Source: an uncultured Alphaproteobacteria bacterium
GTDB taxonomy: Bacteria; Pseudomonadota; Alphaproteobacteria; Rs-D84
Reading direction: 5' to 3'
DNA: 64,000 nucleotides
Assembly: GCA_947367055.1 (NCBI GenBank)
Contig: CANBCI010000001.1
Location: 62,001 to 126,000 of the forward strand
Shown here: positions 19,573 to 52,929 of the stretch, in pieces
Numbering within the stretch: position 1 is the stretch's first letter
How the letters are laid out: each line of letters begins with the position of its first letter
Notes under the pieces: model-generated
What the model was told of the DNA's origin: nothing
What the model saw: only the letters and a program-made list of their open reading frames with translations
The model's database searches: none
Translations under genes and position numbers: made by a program

Positions 19573-20220
19573 TTATTCCACCACCCAGTTGCAACGTTTA
19601 CTAGCAATTTCAGAAGTTATTACAAATACGCCGGTTTCATCCTTGTATTCATTTCGACAATTGTCCCTTACGCAGCGCGAAGACTTCAAATAACAATCCG
19701 TAATTTTCATATTCGCCATGCTGGGTGTGTGTCCGTACGACCACTGCTGATCATTTTCATCAACCCATGCATTATCTACACAACCTTCGCACATAACCGA
19801 CGGACATTGCACGCAGTCGCCCGCGTCCGCTGAATAATAATAACCATATTCGCACGATGCGCTAACTGACACAACCGTCCATGTATCGCACATGCATCCA
19901 CTACCCTGTTCCGTAATTGTAACGTTACCCTCTGTCCTTGTACGTGTTCCGCAAGATGTATAACAAAACCCGGTAGAGCTGCATCGCAGATTACTGTATG
20001 TAGAGTTGACCGCAACATCCGTCACGCCGCCACCGCACCCGGCATACTGCGGAACGCAATTGCTGATATGTGTTGTGCCGCCACCCAGACACCATGCACA
20101 TTTGTTTGATTCATTTGCGCAATATACGTTATTGCCACTACTGCCATAGATAGAATACGCACCATATGCGCCATACATATTGCATAAAACAACAACAGCA
20201 ATCACAAATCTCTTTAGCAT
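19573..20220 (-). CDS. Exported cysteine-rich protein downstream of structured RNA A
   Basis: Function unknown; 215 residues. A signal peptide (MLKRFVIAVVVLCNMYGAYG) is followed by about 20 Cys in patterns such as CAWCLGG, CVQCPSVMCEGC and CGTRTR, so it is probably disulfide-stabilised outside the cytoplasm. The ATG at 20220 has GAGGA about 9 nt upstream. It is preceded by a promoter, a 191-nt structured RNA and a terminator whose U run ends 7 nt before that ribosome site. Its 3' end nearly meets the convergent sufB. It looks inserted into the suf locus. Confidence 0.75.
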   Translation of the reverse strand: MLKRFVIAVVVLCNMYGAYGAYSIYGSSGNNVYCANESNKCAWCLGGGTTHISNCVPQYAGCGGGVTDVAVNSTYSNLRCSSTGFCYTSCGTRTRTEGNVTITEQGSGCMCDTWTVVSVSASCEYGYYYSADAGDCVQCPSVMCEGCVDNAWVDENDQQWSYGHTPSMANMKITDCYLKSSRCVRDNCRNEYKDETGVFVITSEIASKRCNWVVE

Positions 20221-20241
20221 TGCGACAATTCCTCTTTCAAC

Positions 20242-20432
20242 AAAAACCACCAAAAAACGGTGGCTGGGGGATGAGAACAACTTCGAGAAATTGTGGGCTT
20301 ATTTATCTATATCGCCGCCCCCCAGCACTCTGGCCGGGGCACTTTTCATCACACAAAAAAAGACACTTTTACGCTTTTTTAGCATGACGCTCGAAAAGGG
20401 TTCTCATACCCGTCGACAGAACACCCGTCGAC
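20242..20432 (-). ncRNA. Structured leader RNA, copy A (unassigned family)
   Basis: Candidate 191-nt RNA, listed in RNA sense. Hairpin H1 spans 20432-20412 (7-bp stem, loop GGUGUUC). Hairpin H2 is at 20411-20398 (GGG, loop UAUGAGAA, CCC). Seven bases of the H2 loop (20407-20401) pair with 20277-20271. Helix P3 pairs 20395-20390 with 20287-20282 and encloses two hairpins plus the motif GAUAUAGAUAAAUA (20313-20300) and ACAAUU (20294-20289). The terminator CCACC/GGTGG plus five T is at 20263-20242. Copies B and C keep the same order with changed but paired bases. Whether it works in cis on the gene at 20220 or as a free RNA is not known. Confidence 0.75.
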
Positions 20433-20439
20433 AAAAATC

Positions 20440-20468
20440 ATTATACGCAGGCGTTCTTTGCAACGCAA
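20440..20468 (-). promoter_or_regulatory. Promoter of structured RNA A
   Basis: TTGCGT (20468-20463), a 17-nt spacer and perfect TATAAT (20445-20440). The predicted start point about 7 nt on matches the first base of hairpin H1. The -35 box overlaps the -35 region of the divergent sufC promoter. Confidence 0.75.
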
Positions 20469-20485
20469 GTTATTTATGATATAAT
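20458..20485 (+). promoter_or_regulatory. Promoter of sufC
   Basis: TTGCAA (20458-20463), a 16-nt spacer and TATAAT (20480-20485) with an extended TGA just before it. It overlaps the divergent promoter of RNA A. Confidence 0.75.
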
Positions 20486-20508
20486 GTCACAGACATACAG
20501 GATTAAAA

Positions 20509-47013: not shown

Positions 47014-47226
47014 GTCACAGGGAATTTCTGTGACGGGGCGTCGAAACCCCTTATAGAGGGTCCGGATTATTCCGGACATTTATGGCACAACGAAATAATT
47101 GCTTATTTTCATGGTTGTGCCGCCTTCCAACCACACAGGTTGGAGGATGGCTGAATATATTGAATAGGCCTGCAATTCTCTATAATTGTTTCGAACCTCC
47201 AACCACTTGATTTTTCAGTGGTTTTT
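47014..47226 (+). ncRNA. Structured leader RNA, copy C (unassigned family)
   Basis: Candidate 213-nt RNA. H1 is at 47014-47034 (7-bp stem, loop GGAAUUU). H2 is at 47035-47050 (GGGG, loop CGUCGAAA, CCCC), and its loop bases 47041-47046 pair with 47189-47194. P3 pairs 47051-47058 with 47178-47185 (8 bp). Inside P3 are perfect hairpins at 47060-47077, 47084-47121 (8 bp) and 47124-47146 (9 bp), then GAAUAUAUUGAAUA (47153-47166, identical to copy B) and GCAAUU (47172-47177). CCUCC is at 47196-47200, and the terminator is at 47203-47226. A weak promoter (TTTACC, 16 nt, TAAAAA) lies just upstream. Confidence 0.75.
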
Positions 47227-47265: not shown

Positions 47266-47877
47266 ATGAAATACGTTACGTTAATTTTCTGCATAATGCT
47301 GTCAATGCCGGCATTTGCATACCTGCAGGTTTCCAGCGGTTCCGCACCCGGCACATGGTGCGACAGTGAGTGTACCTGGGGCGGATGCGGCGTGTTCAGA
47401 CAAATACAATGTGACTTTGATTGTGACACAATCGCCGACGAACTGACATCCCGGGGTGACTGCACCGATGACAATAGCGAATATTGCTATTTTGGAAAAA
47501 CCGGAAACACATATTATTACTGCGACCAAGGCGGCGAAGGGGCATGCTCAAATATTAGCGGCACCGCAAACATAAATCAAAACAGCAGCTGGGAAACACT
47601 CAACGCATCAAGACACAGTGTATTAAGCCACACATTTCACGTATCGGAACAAGAATACGACATATGCATAATCGGCCTGGTCAGAACAAATTACGGATGC
47701 GCGGCCGGATATTATGCAACACAAAACACCGGCACAGCAAACATAGTCTGCAGTCCGTGCCCCGCCGGCGGCAGCAGCGATTTGGGAAACACCGGTCAAT
47801 CCGGATGCTATCTACGTCCCGGTAACTTTAGCGACGCAAGCGGCACCGGGCAGTATACCGCAAACTGCTATTGGTAA
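47266..47877 (+). CDS. Exported cysteine-rich protein downstream of structured RNA C
   Basis: Function unknown; 203 residues. The signal peptide MKYVTLIFCIMLSMPAFA precedes about 20 Cys (WCDSECTWGGCG, CDFDCD, CSPCPAGGSS) and a tail GCYLRPGNFSDASGTGQYTANCYW that resembles modules in the larger cysteine-rich paralogues. The start at 47266 begins the signal peptide; the AGGGGGA site is rather far (11 nt). It is preceded by a structured RNA with its terminator and followed by a second terminator. Confidence 0.7.
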   Translation: MKYVTLIFCIMLSMPAFAYLQVSSGSAPGTWCDSECTWGGCGVFRQIQCDFDCDTIADELTSRGDCTDDNSEYCYFGKTGNTYYYCDQGGEGACSNISGTANINQNSSWETLNASRHSVLSHTFHVSEQEYDICIIGLVRTNYGCAAGYYATQNTGTANIVCSPCPAGGSSDLGNTGQSGCYLRPGNFSDASGTGQYTANCYW

Positions 47878-51923: not shown

Positions 51924-52694
51924 TTATTCCATGCATTCGGGTTCATCCGGAAACTCTTCGCAGAGTTCGTCTGCCTCGTCTGTACTATCCGCATCCTGTT
52001 CGGGTGCGTTATCTTGCTTGGAATCTTGTTCGACCGCCGCCGCCGATATTGCAACATTTTCTGGATTGTTTTTTTGCGGAACACTTACCGCGTCGCCATT
52101 ATTCGCCGCGGGATTTTCCGTCATCGGTCGAATGTCGGTGTTCTGCGCCGCCGCCGTGTTATCTTTTATCCCGCCCAGGGATGCGGCGGACGCAATCATT
52201 GCGATGCCTGCGCTTATATCATTTGACGAACTATCGGATTCAACACGCCGCACTGCGGACGTCATTTGGTATTCCGGCGACGCGGCCGCAACTTTGTACA
52301 GGCGCCCATCGGCATCAATAATGTTTTCAAAATCCGGCACGGGCGGCATGTCCAATTCATCCCGCAAGGCATTAACCCTTTGCAACAGATTGATATAAGA
52401 ATCACGCAGGCCAGCGAAAGGCTGGCCGGGTTCTGGCAACTTATGCGACTGCTTATAAGATACATGCGGATAATTGGACGAATAAATGCAATTTATGGTT
52501 GCTTGAAAATTCCGCATGTCTTGCGCGGCATCAACATCGGCCCGCGCCGTCGCCGTGGCAGATGCGATTTTTTCTACGCCCGCCGACATCATCCCCAGAT
52601 CCGCAGCATATCCGTTTTGATTTTGATCGCAATATGCATGAAAAGTCACACACAAATTTAATAAAACAATTAAAACGATTTTTCTGGCTCCCAT
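51924..52694 (-). CDS. Exported acidic protein downstream of structured RNA B
   Basis: Function unknown; 256 residues. A signal peptide (residues 1-22, KIVLIVLLNLCVTFHAYC) precedes a helical middle (VEKIASATATARADVDAAQDM, YINLLQRVNALRDEL) and a low-complexity Ala/Asn/Asp-rich region. The tail is very acidic (DSTDEADELCEEFPDEPECME). It is the first gene after the 206-nt structured RNA and its terminator, separated by a second small hairpin (about 52700-52728). Confidence 0.65.
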   Translation of the reverse strand: MGARKIVLIVLLNLCVTFHAYCDQNQNGYAADLGMMSAGVEKIASATATARADVDAAQDMRNFQATINCIYSSNYPHVSYKQSHKLPEPGQPFAGLRDSYINLLQRVNALRDELDMPPVPDFENIIDADGRLYKVAAASPEYQMTSAVRRVESDSSSNDISAGIAMIASAASLGGIKDNTAAAQNTDIRPMTENPAANNGDAVSVPQKNNPENVAISAAAVEQDSKQDNAPEQDADSTDEADELCEEFPDEPECME

Positions 52695-52723: not shown

Positions 52724-52929
52724 AAAAACCGTCAAACAATTGACGGTCGGGAGGCTAGAAACAATCCTATGAATTGCGCGCCGTATTCAATATATTCCGG
52801 CGCCCTCCCAACCGGGGGCTGGGACACATTTCATCGCAGGATAAAAAAACAGCGCATTAGCGCGCCATCCATATTCTGTGACGCATAGGCAAGAGGTTTC
52901 TAGGCCTCGTCAGCAGAACACCTGCTGAC
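52724..52929 (-). ncRNA. Structured leader RNA, copy B (unassigned family)
   Basis: Candidate 206-nt RNA, listed in RNA sense. H1 is at 52929-52909 (7-bp stem, loop GGUGUUC as in copy A). H2 is at 52908-52893 (GAGG, loop CCUAGAAA, CCUC), and loop bases 52903-52897 pair with 52761-52755. P3 pairs 52889-52884 with 52771-52766. Inside P3 are further hairpins, then GAAUAUAUUGAAUA (52797-52784) and GCAAUU (52777-52772). A second CCUC (52754-52751) can compete for GAGG. The terminator CCGTCAA/TTGACGG plus five T is at 52746-52724. Confidence 0.75.

Follow-up and report, generated by a model that had tools for sequence, protein, structure and literature searches.

What is the structured RNA encoded at positions 20242-20432 of the window (the whole 64-kb stretch of DNA that was analysed), and how might it act on the gene behind it? 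An earlier note had grouped this segment with two others, and all three sit where it placed them: copy A at 20242-20432 (minus strand), copy B at about 47014-47226 (plus strand) and copy C at about 52724-52929 (minus strand).

Three leaders of a large covarying RNA family

The first hairpin, H1, could be seen in the sequence of each segment, as described before: 21 nt long, with a 7-bp stem and a 7-nt loop (copy A, 20412-20432, loop GGUGUUC, right after a -10-like TATAAT; copy B, 47014-47034; copy C, 52909-52929). In all three copies the complement of the loop of the second hairpin, H2, lies more than 100 nt from it, just before a C-rich strand. This loop holds strand a1, identified from the sequence and by pairing tests: AUGAGAA at 20401-20407 in copy A (H2, 20398-20411), UCGAAAC at 47041-47047 in copy B (H2, 47035-47050) and 52897-52903 in copy C (H2, 52893-52908).

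Two further conserved pairings, absent from the earlier note, were found: that of b1, located just after H2, with b' in the second hairpin loop of the core, and that of S1 with S2. Pairing tests placed b1 at 20390-20396 (UUUCGAG) in copy A, 47051-47058 (UUAUAGAG) in copy B and 52884-52889 (CCUAUG) in copy C; S1, the alternative partner of S2, was located by the S1:S2 pairing test at 20332-20340, 47123-47132 and 52814-52824, respectively. In copy C the linker also contains a terminator-like hairpin, seen in the sequence at 52843-52865.

The core occupies 20263-20328 in copy A, 47138-47204 in copy B and 52745-52813 in copy C, and consists of S2 (20319-20328; 47138-47146; 52804-52813), P3a (52778-52803 in copy C), P3b carrying b' (b' at 20281-20287 in copy A; P3b at 47173-47188 in copy B and 52762-52776 in copy C), a' (20271-20277; 47188-47194; about 52755-52761) and S3 (20263-20270; 47196-47204; 52745-52754). 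Each segment is followed by an intrinsic terminator, at 20242-20265 in copy A (3 nt in common with S3), 47201-47226 in copy B and 52724-52748 in copy C (4 nt in common with S3 in both), then by a Shine-Dalgarno-like stretch and ATG.

A covariance model (R2) was built from seven copies, C and six from elsewhere, with A and B excluded. In the window it matched copy C with 80.7 bits (6e-18; C being part of the model), copy B with 66.4 bits (2.5e-14) and copy A with 41.7 bits (4.2e-8; match at 20262-20327). The likeness of the three copies is thus not due to chance, since a model built without A and B still detects both.

Covariation, which had been claimed for the H2 pairing, proved very strong, in the core as well as in the a/b pairings. 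In the core structure 95.8% of the cells were paired, 15 of 23 pairs had changed on both sides, and the double-changed cells numbered 198, against 44 in shuffles. The internal loop of P3a is A/U-rich and conserved.

Models of two sub-types found about 67 cores (48 + 19) in the genome of 0.96 Mb, the end of contig C5 being covered in this count through loci L303 and L307. Ten of the 67 had no terminator, and for 17 no a1/b1 partner was detected by a strict automatic test. Within the genus the type-2 model matched 51 of 59 genomes, and within the order 96 of 114; outside the order, matches occurred in only 2 genomes of a class-wide sample of 190. Relatives throughout the order carry up to about 50 copies each, the relative G013 having 47 of type 2. 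The nearest named relative of the window genome is an uncultured Alphaproteobacteria MAG (SufC identity 92%). The RNA family is real, large and well supported.

A core plan shared with sRNA-Xcc1 and phage C4 RNA

At gathering level, Rfam reported only tRNAs in the 64-kb window, and the models of the C4 clan gave no match there. Below threshold, copy C matched RF02221 (sRNA-Xcc1) with 31.9 bits (E 5e-4; cut-off 53); copies A and B gave no RF02221 match, which makes their own link to Rfam an indirect one. In the genome, RF02221 matches were found at 12 places with E about 0.01 or better, the best reaching 42 bits and so lying under the cut-off. Other copies of the genus reach 50 bits, and one locus of the genus, L014, located before a phage Rha gene, scores 57.8 bits, above the cut-off. 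Homology to the RF02221 core (87 nt) was detectable in 23 of 40 relatives. GP20-b, hammerhead and sau-5971 were rejected as identities, their weak matches all lying under the Rfam cut-offs.

RF02221 loci in other Proteobacteria showed the same upstream a1 and b1 and an internal terminator, and most of them repeat a and b at the ribosome-binding site (RBS) of the downstream gene. By Pfam, the genes behind them encode SymE toxin, Bro-N, KilA-N, P22_AR_N (antirepressor) and Rha. The RF02221 model starts at S2 and has the length of mature sRNA-Xcc1, which is 88 nt (PMC2996969). In loci L151-L180 (RF02221) the internal terminator is conserved between b1 and the core, its loop often being CCCGWCAG; in P1, too, a terminator-like hairpin lies between b1 and the C4 core.

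The record of phage P1 is annotated in the order a1, b1, c4, a2, b2. When folded, P1 C4 showed the topology of the window copies: its second hairpin carries b', and a' lies ahead of the closing strand. RNase P maturation is reported for P1 C4 in a reference listed in PMC4919922. In Rfam, c4-2 and c4-a1b1 have a clan number and sRNA-Xcc1 has none. The analysis as a whole suggests that sRNA-Xcc1, too, belongs to the C4-type antisense RNAs.

The statement that no family with such a plan is known has to be abandoned, as the layout is that of P1 C4 RNA and of sRNA-Xcc1. What stands of the earlier description is a structured, covarying family found mostly before genes of exported proteins; its lack of relation to known families does not. 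The family is a divergent branch of the C4/sRNA-Xcc1 kind and not an unrelated new family. Apparently, the leaders are descended from a phage C4-type antisense RNA, which controls antirepressors.

Overlap of S3 with the terminator and pairing of S1 with the core

Of 100 copies, 95 had a U-tailed hairpin right behind S3, and in 74 of these 95 the hairpin begins exactly 4 nt within S3. In RF02221 loci a hairpin follows S3 in about half, with a comparable U run in only one. The energy of the terminator, −11.6 kcal/mol, fell to −3.0 kcal/mol once the nucleotides in common with S3 were removed.

The S1:S2 pairing was stronger than with shuffled upstream sequence in the window group (t = −13.5), and in true RF02221 loci it was no better than shuffled. 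Because the terminator overlaps S3 and S1 pairs with S2, the helices S1:S2, S2:S3 and S3:terminator are mutually exclusive, like those of a four-strand attenuator. An intrinsic terminator lies between promoter and gene and overlaps an alternative helix, which is the arrangement of an attenuator. From S3 to the start codon, the median distance is 47.5 nt.

Locus-private a/b codes

With fixed windows, and so not subject to the bias of hand parsing, a'b' paired with its own upstream a1b1 region at −24.3 kcal/mol and with foreign ones at −17.7 kcal/mol (100 copies, permutation sd 0.27). Against the RBS region the pairing showed no specificity (own −12.06, foreign −12.04 kcal/mol, 100 copies). In the RF02221 loci (n = 26) both the upstream and the RBS pairing were specific, the latter with −23.7 kcal/mol for own and −18.5 for foreign. 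The C4-like translational control through a2/b2 at the RBS that would be expected for the group is refuted in the window-type copies by this equality of own and foreign pairing.

In the window genome, 26 of 26 hand-parsed copies paired best with their own a/b, a figure that hand parsing somewhat favours; in an automatic test restricted to Watson-Crick pairs, 46 of 67 reached a score of 13 or more when matched to their own upstream region, as did 1.4% of the foreign combinations.

The copies of G013 are near-identical, and the 36 that were parsed carried 36 different a/b codes, the own pair being strictly the best in 35. In an ungapped alignment of a1b1:a'b' from 20 of the G013 copies, 98.9% of the cells were paired (slid controls, 49% at most), 12 of 14 pairs were double-changed, and there were 89 double-changed cells, against 25 in shuffles. 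Among the 11 closest copy pairs, 21 of 742 scaffold sites differed, 28 of 103 in b' and 14 of 88 in a'; relative to the core scaffold, b' thus changes about ten times and a' six times faster. The changes were always compensated, and in no pair were both codes the same. At L022 (G013 C4:1-2280) a leader and a 66-aa ORF are tandemly duplicated and nearly identical; the duplicates differ in the linker, b1 and b', and b1 and b' were altered together.

That the code sites change fast and with compensation suggests that private codes are selected for. A plain attenuator acting in cis would account for the data differently: the a/b helix would be structural only and drift while staying paired, no RNA would act in trans, and it would be of no functional consequence that each code is unique. 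The genome-wide targets of a'b', 26060 sites against 26375 in the mismatched control and so without excess, are in line with this, as is the finding that copies with similar scaffolds also differ in code from one genome to another. However, helices that need only to pair are usually slow to change, while the code sites of G013 outpace the scaffold as described, and no code is common to two intact copies. We regard this explanation as doubtful, though a serious competitor. The rule that orthologues keep their codes and paralogues diverge held in a few cases (e.g. L042/L043) and was not relied on, as codes differ between genomes too.

Private codes would make most sense if the strands meet in trans. 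One tentative reading takes the leaders for dozens of orthogonal, self-addressed RNA loops descended from a phage immunity RNA, in which the released core would act in trans solely on a1/b1 of its own locus and set one surface or secreted protein on or off. Here the codes would diverge because copies with the same code would interfere, as in plasmid incompatibility or phage heteroimmunity. Orthogonal control in trans, if true, would be a more striking result than an attenuator alone.

The segments could also be stand-alone genes of trans-acting sRNAs, as sRNA-Xcc1 has been described, the hairpin being the terminator of the sRNA and the downstream gene a mere neighbour. Short RNAs bounded by a terminator would fit this, as would the agreement between mature sRNA-Xcc1 and the RF02221 model in length and the presence in the genome of six promoter-like twin cores without a1/b1. 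We consider it improbable, since the short distance from S3 to the start codon leaves little space for a second promoter and the trans targets are not above background. A search for trans targets of the twin cores among the other leaders gave nothing convincing.

Predicted folds and a proposed transcription switch

Fold ensembles were computed free of pseudoknots and of co-transcriptional kinetics. In these, 62 of 62 leaders favoured S1:S2 together with a1b1:a'b', the probability of S2:S3 being about 0.00, and the nucleotides overlapping S3 were paired in the terminator with a probability of 0.79 in the window genome and 0.43 in G013. Masking a1/b1 in silico raised S2:S3 only to about 0.1-0.2, so that a further factor would be needed. 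The idea that the a1b1 pairing promotes read-through was dropped, as the ensembles gave the opposite.

The alternative fold must matter too, because S2:S3 and the stem of P3b are kept by covariation. As the ensembles favour a1b1:a'b' and covariation keeps S2:S3, we propose a switch that terminates transcription by default. The leader would be a 5' RNA with two exclusive folds. In fold T, the default, a1/b1 would pair with a'/b' and S1 would hold S2; the last 3-4 nt of S3 would then join the terminator, and transcription would stop before the gene. In fold R the C4-like core would form through S2:S3, its hairpin loop holding b', and would take the nucleotides of S3 from the terminator, so that transcription would run into the gene. 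Events at a1/b1 or a'/b' would decide the state of the switch.

We give a probability of roughly 60% to the joint reading that each segment has a core homologous to, and a plan identical with, the sRNA-Xcc1/C4-type phage antisense RNAs, and that the leaders are such RNAs rebuilt as transcription attenuators with a two-fold switch. The two folds likely switch the expression of the downstream gene, possibly as a locus-specific feedback in trans by a phage-derived RNA turned terminator switch.

Genes and loci behind the leaders

Copies A, B and C all precede genes with signal-peptide-like starts, in agreement with the earlier note: a 215-aa Cys-rich protein between sufB and sufC (19573-20220, minus strand), for which a Pfam scan gave no match, a 203-aa Cys-rich protein (47266-47877, plus strand) and a 256-aa protein (51924-52694, minus strand). 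Genome-wide, 35 of 42 genes behind intact leaders, those with an upstream partner, had signal-peptide-like starts, against 252 of 1025 genes of the genome (Fisher p = 4e-16), one crude predictor having been used for both sets. Other genes behind leaders encode glycosyltransferases, small membrane proteins and HTH regulators, and in one relative HsdM.

The genes after A, B, L104, L106 and L118 encode otherwise different Cys-rich exported proteins with a C-terminal pattern like CY...TG.Y...C.Y; a Pfam scan matched no family in those of this type that were scanned. L121, L111 and L119 (G000 C1:276727, 283870, 295377) are intact leaders with terminator and no convincing gene behind, and the DNA that follows is alike in at least two of them. 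In twin cores L224 (G000 C3:145048-145406) and L199 (C4:27580-27736), without a1/b1 or terminator, a -10-like box stands directly before S2; both lie within leader arrays, upstream of leader-controlled genes, and the C3 array ends in an HTH (XRE-like) gene.

The terminator, the mutually exclusive strands and the conserved A/U-rich loop of P3a would also fit a metabolite riboswitch whose pseudoknotted aptamer is of an uncommon type. However, the most specific sequences are the locus-private codes rather than a common ligand pocket, and no common pathway links the downstream genes; we consider a riboswitch very unlikely.

Copy A and its gene (19573-20508) are inserted between sufB and sufC; in more distant relatives (several among L073-L085) these two genes are direct neighbours. 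The insertion is present at L072. In the nearest named relative it has the a/b sequences of copy A and a diverged gene. This insertion, the tandem duplication of RNA and ORF in G013 and the occurrence of sRNA-Xcc1 ahead of symE in integron cassettes (PMC12444791) could indicate that the repeated structure is part of a mobile cassette and serves recombination or insertion, not gene control. The compensatory changes and the fixed order of promoter, RNA, terminator and RBS argue instead for an RNA acting in transcription, and a non-systematic search linked no integrase to the copies; a cassette part thus seems very unlikely.

The attenuator reading ties a chromosomal leader-RNA family of gut Alphaproteobacteria to phage C4 immunity RNA, and the family provides dozens of naturally occurring, orthogonal RNA codes within one small genome. 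Should the switch exist, phage-derived RNA would control about 4-5% of the genes in a reduced commensal genome, most of them surface genes.

Comparison with known systems

The C4 RNA of phages P1 and P7 (Rfam C4, c4-2, c4-a1b1) has in common with the leaders the promoter, H1, H2 with a1 in its loop, b1, the linker and the three-way-junction core, in which the second hairpin loop holds b' and a' precedes the closing strand; in the window, c4-a1b1 scored 15.1 bits in copy B (cut-off 46.7). Unlike C4, the window-type copies have no a2/b2 at the ribosome-binding site, have added S1 and a terminator overlapping S3 by 3-4 nt, and are chromosomal, multicopy and mostly located before genes of secreted proteins.

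With sRNA-Xcc1 (RF02221) the leaders share the homologous core and the upstream a1/b1, but true sRNA-Xcc1 members keep a/b at the RBS and lack S1 and the window-type terminator. DUF3800-VI RNA (RF02915) matched copy C weakly, with 20.5 bits against a cut-off of 35, and DUF3800 models matched none of the 10 downstream proteins scanned.

In the attenuators of pT181 and pIP501 an antisense RNA decides between mutually exclusive strands that end in a terminator. The leaders resemble these, and attenuators of the trp type, in having mutually exclusive strands with a terminator at the end; they differ from the pT181/pIP501 type in that the would-be antisense strand sits within the same leader.
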